Shown here: positions 7,892 through 45,190 of the stretch, piece after piece | Position numbering within the stretch: the stretch's first letter is position 1 | How the letters are laid out: every line of letters begins with the position of its first letter | Assembly (NCBI GenBank): GCA_002897935.1 | Contig: BDTA01000077.1 | Coordinates: 1 to 45,268 of the forward strand | Source: a bacterium BMS3Abin08 | GTDB taxonomy: Bacteria > Nitrospirota > Thermodesulfovibrionia > Thermodesulfovibrionales > JdFR-85 | Length of the DNA stretch: 45,268 bases | Direction of reading: 5' to 3' | The notes under the pieces: generated by a model | The model's input: the letters and a program-made list of their open reading frames with translations, nothing else | The model's database searches: none | What the model was told of the DNA's origin: nothing | Translations under genes and position numbers: made by a program

Positions 7892-7908
7892 CTGGCAAGT
7901 AATTTGCT
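7892..7908 (+). promoter_or_regulatory. Sigma-54 (RpoN) promoter
   Basis: CTGGCAAGTAATTTGCT matches the -24/-12 consensus YTGGCACGRNNNTTGCW. GG is at 7894-7895 and GC at 7906-7907, exactly 10 nt apart. Transcription would begin near 7919, 67 nt before the first gene of the receiver/Hnd operon. Such promoters need an AAA+ activator; an NtrC-type protein is encoded at 41796-43190, but a link between them is inference. Confidence 0.8.
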
Positions 7909-7985: not shown

Positions 7986-8747
7986 ATGGATAAAGGGAAG
8001 ATTATAGTCCTTGACGACGACCCCGCCGTAACGCTGAGTTGCAAAAGGATACTTGGAGCAGAGGGTTTCAATATAACCACTGTGAGCAGGGGAGAGGATG
8101 CGGTAAGGCAGCTTGAAAAGGAGGAGTATGAACTCCTGATTACCGACATAAGACTGCCTGACGTATCGGGGATTGAGGTTGTGAAGGAGGCCCGTGTGAT
8201 CCAGCCGAACACCGACGTCGTTGTTATTACCGGATACCCCACTCTTGAAGACGCAAAGGAGTCCATACGTCTTGGAGCCTTTGAGTATATTGAAAAACCC
8301 TTCACCCCTGAATTCATGATAAACGTTGCAAGAAAGATATTCGACCGGAGGGGCTGGATACTCCGCCAGGCATACATCAATGAATTCAGGAACTATATAG
8401 TGCCTCTGCGGGACAGGGAAAACCCCGTTGTCTTCTACAAGGAAGGGGTCTGGGCAAGACCCACGAAAAGCGGCCTCTGGGAGATAGGATACGACCTGAG
8501 ATATGAGATGGCCTCCGGGGAGATGCTTTATGTTGACTACCTGAAGGTTGAGAAGGTAAAGGCAGGTGAGCCCTTCGCACGGCTGCTGACCGGATCGGGT
8601 AAGATAATCGATATCCCCGCACCCATGACGTCCGACATCAGGGAGTTCAACACAAAGGCCAATGATGTAATCGGTTCTTTACTTAAAGAGCACCTCTCGG
8701 AAGGCTGGCTTGTCTGGCTTGCAAGGGTGGTGCCCCTTGAGCTTTAA
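7986..8747 (+). CDS. Response-regulator receiver fused to a GcvH-like lipoyl-carrier domain
   Basis: The 253-aa protein has two parts. Residues 4-120 form a receiver domain with the acidic cluster D10-D12, phospho-acceptor D54 in LLITD, T82 in VVITG and K104 in IEKPF. Residues 155-250 resemble glycine-cleavage H protein: VWARPTKSGLWEIGYD, then VKAGEPFARLLTGSGK, then PAPMTSDIREFN and SEGWLVWL. These match the H-protein order of hammerhead fold, lipoyl-lysine turn, AP(V/M)SG turn and C-terminal EGWL. K206 sits near the lipoylated lysine, with about a one-residue difference in spacing. There is no DNA-binding domain. A GGAGGG ribosome site precedes ATG 7986. It leads a sigma-54 operon of redox subunits, so a phosphorylation-controlled carrier or scaffold role is possible but unproven. 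Confidence 0.8.
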   Translation: MDKGKIIVLDDDPAVTLSCKRILGAEGFNITTVSRGEDAVRQLEKEEYELLITDIRLPDVSGIEVVKEARVIQPNTDVVVITGYPTLEDAKESIRLGAFEYIEKPFTPEFMINVARKIFDRRGWILRQAYINEFRNYIVPLRDRENPVVFYKEGVWARPTKSGLWEIGYDLRYEMASGEMLYVDYLKVEKVKAGEPFARLLTGSGKIIDIPAPMTSDIREFNTKANDVIGSLLKEHLSEGWLVWLARVVPLEL

Positions 8748-8806: not shown

Positions 8807-9670
8807 ATGCCAGGCAGTATTTTGATTGTAGACGATGAAAGCGTTGTGATAAAGAGCTGCGAAAGGGTGCTCATACCCGAGGGTTATAATGTCTCGGGGG
8901 TTACAGGTGTAGCGGAAGCAATGGAAGTTCTGAAAAATGGAGATTTCGATATCGTTGTGACCGACCTCAAAATGCCCGGGATCGACGGCCTTGAACTTAT
9001 ACGCTGGATCAGGAACAACAACTCCAAGATAGGCATAGTAGTAATAACCGGTTATCCCTCTCAGGAGAGCATCAAGGATGCCCTGGAACTGGGCATTATC
9101 GATTACCTGCCCAAACCTTTCTCCCCCCAGTTGCTTATAGATGTCACGGAGAAGGCCATCACCGCGGTCAGGGCGCAGAAGGTTGAAGAAAAACCCCTGG
9201 ATGTCCGTGACGTTGAAAAGAAACTGAAGGAAATCATGAAGGTAATAGACAAAAACAGGAACAAACCGGGGGCATTGATTCCCGTGCTCCAACAGACCCA
9301 GGAGATAGTCGGATATCTCCCGCCCCCGGTCCAGAGGATAATTGCCCGTGAGTTGAACATCCCGGTCAGTCAGGTTCATGGGGTGGTATCCTTCTACTCC
9401 TTCTTTACCATGAAACCCAAGGGCAAGCATAACGTCCGTGTATGTCTTGGAACTGCATGCTATGTGAAGAGGGCGACCGAAATCCTGGAAAAGCTGAAAG
9501 AACACCTGGGAATTGAAGCGGGAGGCATCACCGATGACAAGAAGTTTTCCCTCGAGACCGTCAGATGTCTGGGCGCCTGTGGTCTGGCGCCTGTGGTGGT
9601 CGTGGATCATGACACACATGGAAGTGTTGATCCTGTCAAGGTGTCGAAAATAATTGATCAGTACAATTGA
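8807..9670 (+). CDS. Response-regulator receiver fused to HndA/NuoE-type [2Fe-2S] subunit
   Basis: The 287-aa protein joins a receiver domain (residues 1-122; D9/D10, D53, T81, K103) to a complete thioredoxin-like [2Fe-2S] NuoE/HndA domain (about 131-287). The cluster ligands are visible as C213-x4-C218 and C254-x3-C258 (VCLGTACY and VRCLGACG). HndA/NuoE passes electrons from or to the FMN site of the HndC/NuoF partner. The receiver resembles that of the preceding gene (both have VVITGYP and KPF), suggesting duplication. The gene lies 59 nt downstream of that gene behind a GGAGGTTAG ribosome site. A receiver on this subunit is unusual; it may gate assembly or electron flow (inference). Confidence 0.9.
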   Translation: MPGSILIVDDESVVIKSCERVLIPEGYNVSGVTGVAEAMEVLKNGDFDIVVTDLKMPGIDGLELIRWIRNNNSKIGIVVITGYPSQESIKDALELGIIDYLPKPFSPQLLIDVTEKAITAVRAQKVEEKPLDVRDVEKKLKEIMKVIDKNRNKPGALIPVLQQTQEIVGYLPPPVQRIIARELNIPVSQVHGVVSFYSFFTMKPKGKHNVRVCLGTACYVKRATEILEKLKEHLGIEAGGITDDKKFSLETVRCLGACGLAPVVVVDHDTHGSVDPVKVSKIIDQYN

Positions 9671-9690
9671 CATCCCGTTTAATATTAAAC

Positions 9691-9999
9691 AGAGTCTGTG
9701 TATAAATGTCTTTTTGTCGTCATGCCCCGAAAGCATTCGAGGCATTCAGGAAGCATTGAAAAGAATAGATTCCGGCTTAAAAACTGCCGGAATGACAGAT
9801 AGAAAAATTGAATTAATAAACAAACACTATGTAGAGACGCCATTAATGGCGTCTCTACAAAATGACCGGTGGTTCGGTTTATATTTTTGTCATACCCGAA
9901 GTCTGTAGTCGGGTATCCGGAAGTTACTGAAAAGACTGGATTCCCGCCCAACAGACCGCGGGAATGACGGCTCTATTGTTGAGTTTATACACAGACGCT
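9691..9999. mobile_element. MITE-like element with terminal inverted repeats (composite)
   Basis: The left end AGAGTCTGTGTATAAA (9691-9706) is matched by its inverse TTTATACACAGACGCT (9984-9999), with one mismatch. The right 116 bp (9884-9999) match 25424-25539 at all but about five positions. No coding capacity is seen, so mobilisation would need a transposase elsewhere. It sits inside the receiver/Hnd operon, between the HndA and HndB genes. Confidence 0.7.
9831..9858. repeat. Perfect 28-bp palindrome
   Basis: GTAGAGACGCCATT is followed at once by its exact reverse complement with no loop. It lies within the composite MITE-like element, and as RNA it could form a strong hairpin inside the operon transcript. 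Confidence 0.85.
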
Positions 10000-10019
10000 A
10001 AATAAAAATGGAGGCAACC

Positions 10020-10403
10020 ATGCCGAAGCTTACTATTGAAGACCTGAAAAAGATAAAGGAGGAGTATAAGGCAAAAACCGCCCTCAGGGGGGAGAAACAC
10101 AGGGCAAGGGTGACCGTCCATATGGGTACTTGCGGACTGGCAGCCGGGGCAAGGGATATCATGAATATTATCCTTGAGGAGCTGGAAAAGGCGGGCAGCA
10201 CAGATGTTGTCGTAACCACATCGGGATGTGCGGGCCTCTGCAGCCGTGAGCCGATGATCACCGTAAATATACTGGATGATCCGCCGGTAAAATATTGCAA
10301 TCTTGATGAAAAGAAGACGAGGAGGATAGTAACGGAACATATTATAGGAGGCAAGGTTGTGGAGGACCTCGCCCTTGTTCAGGGCTGTGAAACGTCATAC
10401 TGA
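10020..10403 (+). CDS. hndB: HndB-like thioredoxin-fold [2Fe-2S] ferredoxin subunit
   Basis: The 127-aa protein resembles the small HndB subunit of NADP-reducing and electron-bifurcating hydrogenases. Visible features are the helical start LTIEDLKKIKEEY, VHMGTCGLAAGARD with C38, and TTSGCAGLCSREP with C70 and C74. Three rather than four cysteines is, as I recall, usual for this subfamily. Start 10020 is chosen because GGAGG (10011-10015) stands 4 nt before it; an ATG at 10008 overlaps that ribosome site. The C-terminus VEDLALVQGCETSY adds one more cysteine. It follows the MITE-like insertion and precedes the HndC-like gene by 108 bp. Confidence 0.85.
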   Translation: MPKLTIEDLKKIKEEYKAKTALRGEKHRARVTVHMGTCGLAAGARDIMNIILEELEKAGSTDVVVTTSGCAGLCSREPMITVNILDDPPVKYCNLDEKKTRRIVTEHIIGGKVVEDLALVQGCETSY

Positions 10404-10511: not shown

Positions 10512-12347
10512 ATGTATAGAGCCAATCTGATGCTGTGTGGAGGAACGGGCTGTATCGCGGGCGGCAGCCTGAAAATAAAGGATGCCCTCATCGAGGAACT
10601 GAAAAAGCATAAACTCCAGGATGAAATATCCGTAGTCCTCACCGGTTGTAATGGGTTCTGCGCTCAGGGACCTCTTTTGATCATCCATCCTGAAGACACC
10701 TTCTATGAGAAGCTGAAGCCTGAAGACATACCGTTTCTCATCGAGGAACACTTTATCAAGGGACGGCCTGTTGAGAAGTTTATGTACCGGGAGCCCAAGA
10801 AACGATCCGCCGTACCATCCATCAACGAGATCCCTTTCTTTAAGTTCCAGGTGCTCCGCGCACTGAGGAACAAGGGCCTTGTGGACCCGGAGAGTATAGA
10901 TGAGTACATCGCCCGTGACGGGTACATGGCTGCCGGCAAGGTGCTCCTTGAGATGACCCCTGAACAGGTCATTAAGGAGGTGAAGGACTCAGGCATAAGG
11001 GGCCGCGGCGGTGCCGGATTCCCGACCGGACTCAAGTGGGAATTCTGCTCCAGGGCCAAAGGGGATCAGAAGTATATCCTCTGTAACGGTGATGAGGGCG
11101 ACCCCGGCGCCTTCATGGACCGGAGCATAATGGAGGCCGACCCCCACGTCGTCCTTGAGGGCATGATTATAGCTGCAAAGGCAATAGGGGCGTCCAAGGG
11201 TTATATCTATGTGAGAGCCGAGTATCCCCTTGCAGTGAGCCGTCTTCAGATTGCGATAGACCAGGCAAAGGAGTATGGCCTCATCGGCGAGGATATCCTG
11301 AACTCGGGATTCAACCTCGATATCGAGATATACCTGGGCGCCGGAGCATTTGTCTGCGGTGAGGAGACGGCACTGATGCGGTCCCTTGAAGGCAAGAGGG
11401 GCATGCCTATACCAAGGCCGCCTTTCCCGGTAAACAAGGGGCTCTGGGGCAAACCCACGGTGCTCAATAACGTGGAAACCTATGCAAACATCCCCCAGAT
11501 AATCCTGAACGGGGCCGAGTGGTTCAAGAGCCTCGGGACCGAGAAATCAACAGGGACAAAGGTCTTTGCCCTTACAGGTGCGGTAAACAATATCGGCCTG
11601 ATAGAAGTCCCGATGGGGACTCCGCTGAGAACCATTATATTTGACATAGGCGGCGGGATCAGAAAGGGTAGAAAGTTCAAGGCGGTTCAGCTTGGCGGAC
11701 CCTCGGGAGGGTGCGTGCCGGAGCATCTCCTTGAGACCCCCGTCACTTATGAGGATATCGTAAAAACAGGGGCTATCGTGGGTTCAGGCGGCATGGTGGT
11801 CATGGACGATAACAACTGCATGGTTAATGTTGCAAGGTTCTTCCTTGAGTTTACCGCTGATGAATCATGCGGGAAGTGCACGCCCTGCAGGATAGGAACA
11901 AGGGTAATGCTTGACAGATTGATAGATATCACCGAGGGTCGCGGCAAGGAGGAAGACATCGAAATCCTTCAAGACCTCTCAGGTGACATTATCAAGACCT
12001 CCCTCTGCGGTCTTGGACAGACTGCGCCGAATCCCGTTCTTACTACAATTCGTTATTTTAAAGATGAATACGAATCGCACATACATGACAACTGGTGCAA
12101 GGCAGGCGTATGCAGGGAACTCTCAACGTTCTATATCGATGAAGAGGCCTGCACGGGATGCACCGTATGTGCAAGGAACTGCCCGCAGCATGCGATTACA
12201 GGCGAAAAGAAAAAACCTCACCATATCCACCAGGAACTCTGTATCAAGTGCCGGACCTGTTATGAGAAATGCAAGTTCGGTGCAGTGAAGGTAGGGCCGC
12301 GGGACATGTTTGAAAAAGAGCAGACCGGAGCGTCTGTTGAGGGTTGA
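10512..12347 (+). CDS. hndC: HndC/NuoF-like NAD(P)H-binding flavoprotein subunit
   Basis: The 611-aa protein has the full HndC/HydB domain order. An N-terminal thioredoxin-like [2Fe-2S] domain carries C9, C14, C46 and C50. The NuoF core has GRGGAGFPTGLKW and CNGDEGDPGAFMDRS for FMN and NAD(P)H binding, then an SLBB domain, then CGKCTPCRIG for the [4Fe-4S] cluster. The C-terminal ferredoxin domain binds two [4Fe-4S] clusters: CTGCTVCARNCP and CIKCRTCYEKC. It would oxidise NAD(P)H or reduce NAD(P)+ and exchange electrons with its neighbours. In known Hnd/Hyd complexes the next gene is an [FeFe]-hydrogenase; here it is a NuoG-like protein. A GGAGG site precedes ATG 10512. Confidence 0.93.
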   Translation: MYRANLMLCGGTGCIAGGSLKIKDALIEELKKHKLQDEISVVLTGCNGFCAQGPLLIIHPEDTFYEKLKPEDIPFLIEEHFIKGRPVEKFMYREPKKRSAVPSINEIPFFKFQVLRALRNKGLVDPESIDEYIARDGYMAAGKVLLEMTPEQVIKEVKDSGIRGRGGAGFPTGLKWEFCSRAKGDQKYILCNGDEGDPGAFMDRSIMEADPHVVLEGMIIAAKAIGASKGYIYVRAEYPLAVSRLQIAIDQAKEYGLIGEDILNSGFNLDIEIYLGAGAFVCGEETALMRSLEGKRGMPIPRPPFPVNKGLWGKPTVLNNVETYANIPQIILNGAEWFKSLGTEKSTGTKVFALTGAVNNIGLIEVPMGTPLRTIIFDIGGGIRKGRKFKAVQLGGPSGGCVPEHLLETPVTYEDIVKTGAIVGSGGMVVMDDNNCMVNVARFFLEFTADESCGKCTPCRIGTRVMLDRLIDITEGRGKEEDIEILQDLSGDIIKTSLCGLGQTAPNPVLTTIRYFKDEYESHIHDNWCKAGVCRELSTFYIDEEACTGCTVCARNCPQHAITGEKKKPHHIHQELCIKCRTCYEKCKFGAVKVGPRDMFEKEQTGASVEG

Positions 12348-12657: not shown

Positions 12658-15123
12658 ATGATAGAACTGACGATTAACGACAAGAAACTCCAGGCAGGAA
12701 AGGGGATGACCATCCTTAACATTGCAAAGGAGAATAACATAAATATACCTCATCTCTGCTGGGACAGGAGGTTAAAGCCCTATGGCGGCTGCAGGCTCTG
12801 TCTCGTCGAGGTCGAGGGGCAGCGGAAACTACTCGCTGCTTGCTCCACGCCGGCGGAAAACGGCATGGTTATTCATACGGACACCCCTACACTCAGGAAG
12901 GCCCGCAAGACAGTGCTTGAACTCCTTCTCGTCCACCACCCCCTTGACTGTCCTATCTGTGACAAGGCGGGCGAGTGTAGTCTCCAGGACCTTGCATATC
13001 AGTACGGTCCCTCACACAGCAGGTTCTACGGCGAGAGGAAACATGACCCGGAGGCATCAAGTCCGCTGATTGAGAGGAACCCCAACCGCTGTATCCTCTG
13101 TGGACGCTGTGTCAGGGTCTGCTGGGAACACCAGGGGGTAGGTGCAATCAGCCTGATAGGCAGGGGCTTCAAGACAAAGGTCAGCCCTGCCTTTGAAGAG
13201 ACTCTTGACTGCGAATTCTGTGGACAGTGTGTGGATGCCTGTCCCGTTGGAGCCCTCGGCACCAAACCCTACAAGTACAGGGCCCGGGCATGGTTTCTTG
13301 AGAGCACGGATACGATCTGTCCATACTGCAGTGTTGGATGCACACTTACTCTTGATCTCAGAGAAGGCAGGATACTCAGGGTAAGAGGTGTTGACGGTAT
13401 CGGTATAAACAAGGGGGACCTCTGCGGAAAGGGGAGATTCGGGTTCGACTTTATTTACAGTGACGCAAGGCTCAAGGCCCCCCTCATCAAGAAAGACGGG
13501 GAGTTTCAGCAGGTATCCTGGGAAGAGGCCATCTACTTTATCTCCGAGAGGCTCAAGGAGATAAAGGAAAAATACGGGTCTGAGAGCATCGGAGCAATAG
13601 GCTCTGCACGGGCAACCCTTGAGGACAACTACATGCTCCAGAAGTTCATGCGGGAAGTGATAGGCACTGATAACCTTGACACCTCTGCAAGATTAGGGTT
13701 TGCCTGGGCTCTGAAGGGTATGGAAGACACTTACGGCATCAAGCTGAACCCCATAAATCTTGACTCCCCTCTGGGGAAGGAGGCCGTCCTTGTTGTTGAA
13801 ACGGACATAACCTCGACGCATCCCATCTTCGGCCTGAAGTTTATAGAGGCCAAGCAGGGGGGCTCGGAGGTAATTGTCCTGGACCCCAGGAAAACAAAGC
13901 TTGCCAGGAGGGCATCTAAGTGGCTTCGTAACAGACCCGGTACTGCCACGGCCTTCCTCAACGGTATAATCAATCTTGCCTTCAAGGCAGGCGTACATGT
14001 GAAAAACGATATCACCACAGAGGGGCTCGATGCCTTGCAGGATTCGGTAAAGGATTATTCACCGGAAAAGGTCTCCGGGATTACGGGGATACCGGTGGAT
14101 GCGTTTCAGGCGGTCGCCGGGTCTTTTATAAACGCAGAAAGCCGCCTCCTCACCCTTACACTCGGGGCTGCCGAAAACCAGAAGGGGATCGAGACGGTGC
14201 ATGCCGCCGCCAACCTGCTGATGCTTTTGGGTGAGGGGCCGGAGGCGCTCCAGATACCTGCTGATTACGCAAACACATACGGCGCCTGGCTGATGAACGT
14301 CCGTCCGCTGAACGGCGGCAAGGACCTCTATGAAATGCTCTACTCCCCCGGGGCCTTAAAGGCCCTCTATGTAATGGGTGAAGACCCCCTTGTCACAATG
14401 CCCGAGGCAAATCTCATTGAAGAGACCCTGCGTGGGCTTGAACTCCTCATAGTCCAGGATATACGCCTCTCGGAGATTGCCGGGTATGCCCATGTGGTAC
14501 TCCCTGCAACGAGTTGGGCGGAAAAGGAAGGCACCTTTATAAACTCGCAGGGCCTTCCGCAACCCCTGCCCAAGGTGGTGGCACCGGCGGGTGATTCCAC
14601 ACATGACTGGAAAATCATCAGGAACATTGCGAGGGCTATCAGGCATGACCTGGGCACGATAGAGTTATCCACACTGAAGAATGAAATAGGACAGATGCCC
14701 ACTGAAGCGGGAAACCGGAAGTGGAGGTTCGTCCCCTCGGAATGGGAACTGAAAGAGGCCCCTGATGAAGAGTATCCGATCCTGATGGTTACCGGGAATA
14801 TTATGCAGCACTCAGGCTCTCTCTCAGTCATGTCAAAGAGTCTGAGCCACGTCCTCTCCGATGCCTTTGTCCAGATAAGCCCAGAGGATGCGGGGAGGTT
14901 CGGAGTCGATGACGGTGAGTTCATGAAGATCACATCAAAGAAGGGTTCCGTGCTTATCAAGGCAAGAATATCCGATGAAATCCCCGAAGGGATGCTCTTT
15001 GTGCCTCTTCACTTCGCCCATGCCAGGGTGGATACCCTCACCTCGGTACAAAGGGACGGGTCCGCCCTTCTTACACCCGTCAACATCACGGCACAGAAGG
15101 ACAACGGTGGAAGCCCGGGTTGA
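12658..15123 (+). CDS. NuoG/formate-dehydrogenase-like iron-sulfur molybdopterin-fold subunit
   Basis: The 821-aa protein starts with a [2Fe-2S] domain (C34, C45, C48, C62), a His/Cys [4Fe-4S] site (H94, C98, C101, C107) and two [4Fe-4S] clusters (C145/148/151/155 and C185/188/191/195). Then comes the MopB-type [4Fe-4S] site (C221, C224, C228, C256) and a molybdopterin-oxidoreductase fold to the C-terminal dinucleotide-binding domain. At the place where formate dehydrogenases have Cys or Sec before His, this protein has SARLGFAW (G347). It is therefore probably not a formate dehydrogenase, but a NuoG-like electron wire or an enzyme of unknown substrate. Start 12658 follows AAGGAGG (12642-12648). 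Confidence 0.87.
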   Translation: MIELTINDKKLQAGKGMTILNIAKENNINIPHLCWDRRLKPYGGCRLCLVEVEGQRKLLAACSTPAENGMVIHTDTPTLRKARKTVLELLLVHHPLDCPICDKAGECSLQDLAYQYGPSHSRFYGERKHDPEASSPLIERNPNRCILCGRCVRVCWEHQGVGAISLIGRGFKTKVSPAFEETLDCEFCGQCVDACPVGALGTKPYKYRARAWFLESTDTICPYCSVGCTLTLDLREGRILRVRGVDGIGINKGDLCGKGRFGFDFIYSDARLKAPLIKKDGEFQQVSWEEAIYFISERLKEIKEKYGSESIGAIGSARATLEDNYMLQKFMREVIGTDNLDTSARLGFAWALKGMEDTYGIKLNPINLDSPLGKEAVLVVETDITSTHPIFGLKFIEAKQGGSEVIVLDPRKTKLARRASKWLRNRPGTATAFLNGIINLAFKAGVHVKNDITTEGLDALQDSVKDYSPEKVSGITGIPVDAFQAVAGSFINAESRLLTLTLGAAENQKGIETVHAAANLLMLLGEGPEALQIPADYANTYGAWLMNVRPLNGGKDLYEMLYSPGALKALYVMGEDPLVTMPEANLIEETLRGLELLIVQDIRLSEIAGYAHVVLPATSWAEKEGTFINSQGLPQPLPKVVAPAGDSTHDWKIIRNIARAIRHDLGTIELSTLKNEIGQMPTEAGNRKWRFVPSEWELKEAPDEEYPILMVTGNIMQHSGSLSVMSKSLSHVLSDAFVQISPEDAGRFGVDDGEFMKITSKKGSVLIKARISDEIPEGMLFVPLHFAHARVDTLTSVQRDGSALLTPVNITAQKDNGGSPG

Positions 15124-25233: not shown

Positions 25234-25250
25234 AATCTCTCCCCGTAGTT

Positions 25251-25390
25251 AGTGTCTGTGTATAAACTACATGTACTTGTCATTCCCGCAATCCCGAACG
25301 CCTTCGGGACGGGAATCCTTCTTAAAGAACGATTCCGGTCAAGCCGGAATGACGGAAAACGACTACTGTTCGACTTTATACACAGACTCT
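25251..25390. mobile_element. MITE-like element, copy A of a tandem pair
   Basis: AGTGTCTGTGTATAAA (25251-25266) and TTTATACACAGACTCT (25375-25390) are terminal inverted repeats differing at one position. Inside, 25279-25353 is the GTCATTCC...GGAATGAC unit seen also at 2654 and 45004. No coding capacity. Confidence 0.75.
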
Positions 25391-25394
25391 ATTT

Positions 25395-25539
25395 AGAGTC
25401 TGTGTATAAAGTGCCATTTTTTATTTTTGTCATACCCGAAGTCAGTAGTCGGGTATCCAGAAGTTACTGAAAAGACTGGATTCCCGCCCAACAGACCGCG
25501 GGAATGACGGCTCTATTTTTGACTTTATACACAGACTCT
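25395..25539. mobile_element. MITE-like element, copy B of a tandem pair
   Basis: AGAGTCTGTGTATAAA (25395-25410) and TTTATACACAGACTCT (25524-25539) are exact inverted repeats. The right 116 bp are nearly identical to 9884-9999. It is 4 bp from copy A. An ATTTAG string follows both copies and may reflect the insertion target. The pair sits between carA and the nitroreductase gene. Confidence 0.78.
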
Positions 25540-25541
25540 AT

Positions 25542-26657
25542 TTAGTCCTTCTCCAACATCTCCCTGAACCTGTTGAATATATGCCTCGCATCATTCGGCC
25601 CGGGACCTGCCTCGGGATGATACTGGACGGAAAAGGCAGGCAGTTCAACATGCTCCATCCCCTCTTCCGTCCCGTCATAGAGGTTTCTGTGCGTCAGCCT
25701 TATCCGTCCCTTGAGACTCTCGACATCCACACAGTAGTTATGGTTCTGTGCTGTAATTTCCACCTCACCGCTATCGAGATACATTACGGGGTGATTGCCG
25801 CCGTGGTGTCCAAACTTCAGTTTGTAGGTCCTCCCGCCAAGGGCAAGTCCGAGTATCTGATGACCGAGGCATATGCCGAAAAGCGGCTTCTTTCCGAGCA
25901 GTTTTTTCGTGTTTTCAATCCCATACGTAACAGCTTCAGGGTCTCCCGGACCGTTGCTCAGCAGCACCCCGTCGGGATTCATATCAAGCACCGCCTCGGC
26001 AGGGGTGTCAGCCGGCACTACCGTTATATCAAATCCCGCCCCGGCAAGACTGCGAAGGATGCTGAACTTCACCCCGAAATCATAAACCACCACGCGCAAT
26101 CCTGAATCCTGAATCCTGGATCCCGGACCCGGCCGCCAAGGCCTCTCCGTCCATTTGTACTCCTTCCCGGTGGTTACATGCCTGACGAGGTCAACCCCTC
26201 CAATGCCGGGATGGGATTTTACCTTCGCGTAGAGGGCCTCGGGGTTAAGTTCCTCTGTGGATATTATCCCCATCCGGGCGCCATAGTTCCTGATATGTCT
26301 TGTAAGCGCCCTCGTGTCAATGCCCTGGATGCCCACCACGCCATGCCTCCCGAGATAATCCCCCAGTGATCCAGCCGAACGCCAGTTGCTCGGGTAGTCA
26401 AAGAACTCCTTTACAACGAACCCCTCAACCTTAGGCCCTCCTCCTGACTCGGTATCCTCTTCATTCACGCCGTAGTTCCCCATCTGTGTGTATGTCATGG
26501 TAACGATCTGTCCCCTGTATGAGGGGTCGGTGAGTATCTCCTGGTAACCGGTCATTGAGGTATTAAAGACCACCTCACCAATGGTCTCACCTTCGGCACC
26601 GAAGGACTCGCCTTCAAAGACCATCCCGTCCGACAGCACAAGCAACGCCTCTTTCAT
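25542..26657 (-). CDS. carA: Carbamoyl-phosphate synthase small subunit (glutaminase)
   Basis: CarA releases ammonia from glutamine and channels it to CarB. The 371-aa protein has an N-terminal domain ([23 protein letters not shown]) and a class I amidotransferase domain with C263 in FGICLGHQ and H347/E349 in YHPEAGPGP. Start 26657 is chosen because ATGA overlaps the pyrC stop and a GGGAG site precedes it. A short stretch at about residues 173-187 ([15 protein letters not shown]) looks like an in-frame insertion; its DNA (26099-26130) is a degenerate short tandem repeat. Confidence 0.95.
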
Positions 26658-44958: not shown

Positions 44959-44975
44959 GGAAAACCTGATTAAAC

Positions 44976-45190
44976 AGAGTCCGTGTATAAATTACGGTTA
45001 TTTGTCATTCCCGCAAGTGAATCCCGAACGCTTTCGGGAGTCGGGAATCCTTCTTAAAAAACGATTCCGGACAAGCCGGAATGACAGAAAAACAACCGCT
45101 CTGCGCTTTGAACGACTCCCCGAACGCTTTCGGGGAATGACGGGAGAACGTCAACTGTTCGATCCTTCATTCCCGACCAAAGGTCGGGGC
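44976..45190. repeat. MITE-like repeat, incomplete copy, with REP-like hairpins
   Basis: The left terminal repeat AGAGTCCGTGTATAAA (44976-44991) is followed by the GTCATTCC...GGAATGAC unit (45004-45085). CCCCGAACG...CTTTCGGGG and CCGACC...GGTCGG hairpins follow to about 45190. No right terminal repeat is visible. Confidence 0.6.

Follow-up and report, generated by a model that had tools for sequence, protein, structure and literature searches.

In the Nitrospirota bacterium BMS3Abin08, a response-regulator receiver that retains its phosphorylation residues is joined, within one open reading frame, to the HydC-type [2Fe-2S] subunit (BfuC) of a putatively bifurcating NAD(H)-ferredoxin oxidoreductase. 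As judged from sequence, this union of a Bfu-type subunit with a response regulator in a single polypeptide is what is new here, and our confidence in the fusion and in its signalling module is high. We tentatively propose, at slightly less than even odds, that a two-component kinase directly controls this bifurcation-type enzyme via the receiver in its gating-[2Fe-2S] subunit, alongside sigma-54 control of the operon. To our knowledge, the control of direction and rate in NADH/ferredoxin electron-bifurcating enzymes is poorly understood; the receiver described below is a candidate switch that is covalently part of the enzyme, and it makes gating by signalling directly testable in such an enzyme.

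A receiver fused to an electron-transfer subunit

The window is the whole stretch of DNA that was analysed, 45,268 nucleotides of contig BDTA01000077.1. On its plus strand, positions 8807..9670 hold an intact frame of 287 aa (REC-BfuC), whose ATG start codon is preceded by GGAGG. Residues 5-113 (8819..9145) match the receiver model PF00072 (Response_reg, E 2e-28) and contain the acidic pair D9/D10, the phospho-acceptor D53 (codon 8963-8965), T81 (9047-9049) and K103 (9113-9115). Residues 144-286 (9236..9664) match PF01257 (2Fe-2S_thioredx, E 1.1e-50) and carry the C1 [2Fe-2S] cysteines that mark BfuC in the Bfu family, namely C213, C218, C254 and C258 (codons starting at 9443, 9458, 9566 and 9578). 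The solved structures nearest to this NuoE/HndA/HydC part are HydC proteins (7t2r, 8a6t, 7q4v). The receiver part itself contains no cluster cysteines, and no DNA-binding domain was found in REC-BfuC. A linker of ∼30 residues separates the two halves in the window (28-36 residues among 39 aligned homologues); across these homologues, identity is 27% in the linker, 63% in the receiver and 69% in the NuoE part.

The operon and the predicted type of its enzyme

REC-BfuC belongs to an operon with the gene order REC-GcvH-like, REC-BfuC, HndB-like, BfuB and BfuA, all on the plus strand. The HndB-like gene (10008..10403) encodes a small [2Fe-2S] thioredoxin-fold protein of 131 aa, which matches PF01257 just below cut-off (2.6e-4) and occupies the same place in the gene order as in homologous loci. 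BfuB (BfuB/HydB/HndC; 10512..12347) combines an N-terminal [2Fe-2S] domain (PF01257), an FMN/NADH domain, NADH_4Fe-4S and a C-terminal 2x[4Fe-4S] domain. It aligns over its full length, N- and C-terminal cluster domains included, with HydB (7q4v, 1e-258) and NiFe-HydB (7t2r, 2e-248). The Bfu family has been defined by sequence (Schut et al., 2022; PMC9304861), and the 51K FMN, SLBB, NADH_4Fe-4S and 4Fe-4S domains of its BfuB recur here, SLBB as a weak match: PF01512, PF10589 and two copies of PF00037 score above their cut-offs, and PF10531 (SLBB) reaches 22.6 bits, below the cut-off of 27. BfuA (12658..15123) is NuoG/FdhA-like and joins Fe-S domains to a Mo-bis-MGD fold without the catalytic Cys/His (PF13510, PF10588, PF22117, PF04879, PF00384, PF01568); the 2Fe-2S/4Fe-4S ferredoxin domains of a BfuA are represented by PF13510, PF00111, PF00037, PF10588 and PF04879. 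Its best solved matches are FdsA-type formate dehydrogenase subunits.

Three other enzyme types were considered and rejected. An NAD-dependent formate dehydrogenase does not fit, because the Mo-ligating Cys/Sec and the following His are replaced by G and F in the window (NLDTSARLGF versus NTDTCARVCH in Rhodobacter capsulatus FdsA); no Mo-ligating Cys was found at that column in 48 BfuA homologues. For an [FeFe] hydrogenase, the FeFe models match only the N-terminal Fe-S part of the large subunit, within residues 25-230, the rest being a molybdopterin fold. The NADH module of complex I (NuoEFG) was rejected on the NuoE tree, in which the fused clade stands apart (100*) from the NuoE of complex I, this genome's own copy included. 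We conclude that, by sequence, the operon encodes an NAD(H)-ferredoxin oxidoreductase of the Bfu/HydABC type, whose BfuB is HydB-like and for which bifurcation is putative. An earlier assignment to the HndA subunit of an NADH-linked complex was right in kind, but the Bfu/HydABC type is more exact, and the enzyme is not a plain complex I.

Two observations on gene arrangement were made in passing. One homologous locus (L069:10868-20130) has a single REC-NuoE gene followed by two BfuB-BfuA pairs in tandem. In the window, repeats whose ends read GTCTGTGTATAAA and whose cores read CATTCCCGCAA lie at 2573-2727, 9684-10005, 25244-25545 and 44969-45091, one of them between the REC-BfuC and HndB-like genes; similar repeats with VIPACP-type translations also occur on contig C62 of the same genome.

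A candidate kinase and a family of sister receivers

In related loci the genes upstream of the fusion encode a kinase, a CheY-like receiver, sometimes a sigma-54 regulator, and a DRTGG-HATPase-DRTGG-PHP-HATPase cassette. The kinase has HAMP, HisKA and HATPase domains, and its extracytoplasmic part mostly carries CxxCH and CxxxxCH motifs. Among 33 fused loci with ample flanks, REC-GcvH was present in 28, PHP in 23, the kinase (within 10 kb) in 22 and CheY in 20. In the genome of the window, the candidate kinase lies on contig C62 (10085-11746), where kinase, sigma-54 regulator, cassette and CheY stand beside complex I genes.

The receivers of this module, carried by NuoE, GcvH, CheY, the sigma-54 regulator and the ATPase, form one clade (98/89) that excludes 41 other receivers of the same genome, and the NuoE and GcvH receivers pair within it (94/90); the tree comprises 88 receiver domains with few alignment columns, and its bootstrap is not fully settled. 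The simplest account of this topology is that the module receivers arose by duplication within the circle of targets of one kinase. The sensor is present in 29 of the 32 genomes with the fusion and in three of the nine without it (Fisher p 0.001, kinship ignored). We infer with moderate confidence that the C62 kinase pairs with the module receivers.

Several findings count against control by this kinase. In the window's own family it is unlinked to the operon, and no sensor homologue was found at E 1e-6 in three fusion-bearing genomes (G019, G027 and G038). In a further genome (G017, L127:3419-6266), kinase, CheY and REC-GcvH occur without a NuoE fusion, directly before hrcA-grpE-dnaK-dnaJ-type genes.

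The cassette also stands at unfused Hyd/Bfu-type loci, some of them in other phyla (7/16 well-flanked unfused loci), and therefore looks older than the fusion. At two loci its HATPases are themselves fused to receivers, as REC-HATPase and HATPase-REC (L086:7310-8179 and L128:9434-10345); in the receiver tree, the L086 one is sister to the NuoE receiver of its own locus.

A sigma-54-type motif upstream of the operon

A sigma-54-type promoter motif, TGGCAAGTAATTTGCT (7893..7908, plus strand), matches 11 of 12 consensus positions and lies 93 nt ahead of the operon's first gene. Of 43 homologous loci, 17 have a site that matches 10 or more of the 12 positions in the 200 nt before REC-GcvH; by chance, 0.45 of the 43 would be expected from shuffled sequence (3 at most) and 0.57 from windows drawn at random in the same loci. 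Control is probably dual, acting on transcription through the sigma-54 regulator and, as the fused receiver suggests, on the protein as well. The kinase may thus act twice, on transcription and on the enzyme.

Proposed control of electron flow

We propose that a kinase whose periplasmic sensor is of the CxxCH/CxxxxCH (c-haem-like) kind phosphorylates several sister receivers. Its targets would be CheY, REC-GcvH, the sigma-54 regulator, which would switch the operon on, and the BfuC receiver. Once phosphorylated at D53, the BfuC receiver would dock differently on BfuB/BfuC; the altered docking could gate the branch FMN → C1 [2Fe-2S] → B2 and so adjust NADH/ferredoxin electron traffic faster than transcription could. 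The pairing of kinase and receivers, haem binding, phosphorylation and the gating effect are the parts of this explanation that we infer. For the whole, in which the kinase would control both the operon and the assembled enzyme via the REC-BfuC receiver, we estimate a probability of roughly 0.5, and the chances that the phosphorylated receiver directly controls electron flow appear about even.

Structural work on related enzymes bears on the gating step. In the cryo-EM structure of NiFe-HydABCSL, the C-terminal domain of HydC moves between FMN and B2 and was proposed as a gate for low-potential electrons (PMC8880783); in Thermotoga maritima HydABC, the moving parts are the bridge domains of HydB and HydA (PMC9499530). 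By analogy, a receiver on BfuC would be well placed to bias such domain movement. The gating would be indirect, since the mobile part of HydC is its C-terminal domain and the receiver is N-terminal.

Information might also flow in the opposite direction. The BfuC receiver would then inform the kinase of the enzyme's redox or assembly state, serving either as a phosphate sink or as feedback that tunes the sigma-54 regulator. This is in keeping with the several sister receivers that appear to share one kinase, and feedback by an Fe-S-binding single-domain receiver is documented for FixT acting on FixL (PMC7078487). However, a phosphate sink needs no fusion to a catalytic complex, and the cluster cysteines all lie outside the receiver; we regard such reporting as unlikely.

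The REC-GcvH-like neighbour

The first operon gene (7986..8747, plus strand) encodes a protein of 253 aa, with a receiver at residues 6-113 (PF00072, 3.2e-25) and a C-terminal GcvH-like domain, for which the PF01597 match is marginal (21.7 bits for the whole protein and 23.9 for the domain alone, at a cut-off of 22.2). The lipoyl lysine that characterizes GcvH is usually missing from the REC-GcvH family: among 45 sequences the position is occupied by K, Q, H, R, E and others, with Lys in the window and Gln in many. We rejected lipoyl chemistry as a conserved trait of REC-GcvH. The preliminary description had asked for a search of other genomes and whether the domain pair always comes with the GcvH-like partner; the pair does recur, but the partner is not constant, being immediately upstream of the fusion in 40 of 50 loci.

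This neighbour suggests another role for the BfuC receiver, that of a phosphorylation-dependent assembly or docking module which dimerizes, or binds REC-GcvH or CheY, and thereby recruits or localizes the complex instead of gating electrons. REC-GcvH is usually adjacent and its receiver is the one that groups with the NuoE receiver; moreover, a GcvH-like domain without a conserved lipoyl lysine may therefore be a binding module. The at least ten fusion loci that have no adjacent REC-GcvH argue against such a role, which we hold to be just as unlikely as reporting to the kinase. Control of the assembled enzyme by the kinase through the BfuC receiver is the reading that we prefer to both.

Conservation and origin of the fusion

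The fused frame was found in 32 of 41 relatives (one of the 32 being cut by a contig end) and, with a frame length of 283-384 aa as the criterion, in 75 Thermodesulfovibrionia genomes among 295 of the phylum Nitrospirota. A named genome collection yielded at least about 50 full-length fusions; the labels among the fusion matches listed were Nitrospirota or unclassified, with one exception labelled Deferribacteres. We read 51-53 full fusion sequences directly, two of them from single-contig chromosomes (L046 and L063). D9, D10, D53, T81, K103 and the four cluster cysteines are invariant in 52-53 of 53 sequences, and 61 columns are invariant across 39 fusion sequences. Between closely related sequences, dN/dS is about 0.05-0.09 in the receiver and 0.04-0.07 in the NuoE part; both halves of REC-BfuC are under purifying selection of similar strength.

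These data bear out the preliminary description, which had listed D53, T81, K103 and the four cysteines as present and had taken both halves to be functional in a fusion with no DNA-binding output: D53, T81 and K103 are where it placed them, and the invariance and low dN/dS identify a real, conserved receiver/electron-transfer fusion with both halves intact. Its interpretation as a whole is borne out in part. Of the two findings that it had named as fatal, loss of the phospho-Asp in homologues is excluded by the invariance of D53. The receiver could instead be a structural appendage that stabilizes the subunit with little regulatory effect, and unfused sister enzymes evidently exist in the same phylum without it; the D, T and K of the phosphorylation site do not vary and dN/dS is low, which makes this very improbable. 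The other finding named as fatal, a frameshift or assembly join that merged two genes, is next to impossible given the same fused frame in 75 genomes, closed chromosomes among them, with all residues kept; nothing was found that speaks for it.

A tree of 99 NuoE sequences places the fusions in one group. Three rows inside it appear as 'unfused': two (L088 and L099) are contig ends, and the third, L090, is a near-identical copy of L063 on the same chromosome, whose own operon breaks off after a cut HndB frame. Closest to the fused clade stand Nitrospirota enzymes that are unfused; all are accompanied by the cassette, and several come from another class. A single origin near the base of Thermodesulfovibrionia fits this tree with moderate support (85-88 SH-aLRT).

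Relation to known systems

The enzyme resembles members of the Bfu family (PMC9304861) in the N- and C-terminal cluster and FMN/NADH domains of BfuB, its HydC/HndA-type BfuC and the A-type Fe-S domains of BfuA. It differs from them in that BfuC bears a receiver and that BfuA is Fdh-like and lacks the catalytic Cys; neither 'response regulator' nor 'histidine kinase' turned up in a word search of the main text of Schut et al. (2022). With the Desulfovibrio NADP-reducing hydrogenase HndABCD and Thermotoga HydABC it shares an A/B/C-like gene set plus an HndB-like small protein, but its large subunit lacks the H-cluster domain and its HndA carries the receiver. The NAD-dependent formate dehydrogenase FdsABG of R. 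capsulatus supplies the best solved matches of BfuA, whereas here the Mo-ligating Cys and the next His have become G and F/Y, and the B subunit is of the BfuB type with extra clusters.

On the signalling side, response regulators with enzymatic output likewise combine an intact receiver, a linker and a non-DNA-binding effector; here, in contrast, a multi-subunit redox enzyme provides the effector, an electron-transfer subunit, and such a subunit is thereby added to the list of response-regulator outputs. FixT (PMC7078487) also joins receiver signalling to Fe-S chemistry, but it consists of one receiver and inhibits a kinase, whereas the cluster here sits in a separate domain, a subunit of a redox complex. 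No published description of a receiver/NuoE-type fusion was found in the full-text literature searched, whose coverage leaves out most subscription journals. The analysis also names a likely sensor, a predicted haem-type kinase, for an uncharacterized Bfu clade; if the proposal is true, control by such a sensor in Thermodesulfovibrionia could reach the enzyme as well as its gene.

An in-frame TGA in rtcB

Elsewhere in the window, the minus strand encodes RtcB (6904-5465) with a single in-frame TGA at about 6613-6611. The TGA falls precisely on the codon of the catalytic cysteine of this RNA ligase (GYDIN-TGA-GVR). A possible hairpin follows the TGA (z -1.1). The search covered 21 genomes including this one, and in 13 of them RtcB has one in-frame TGA; among 16 loci in which the motif was read, 12 had TGA and four had TGC (Cys). 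A tRNA-Sec family model scores above its cut-off in this genome, although it also matches genomes without selenocysteine. RtcB is a candidate selenocysteine protein.
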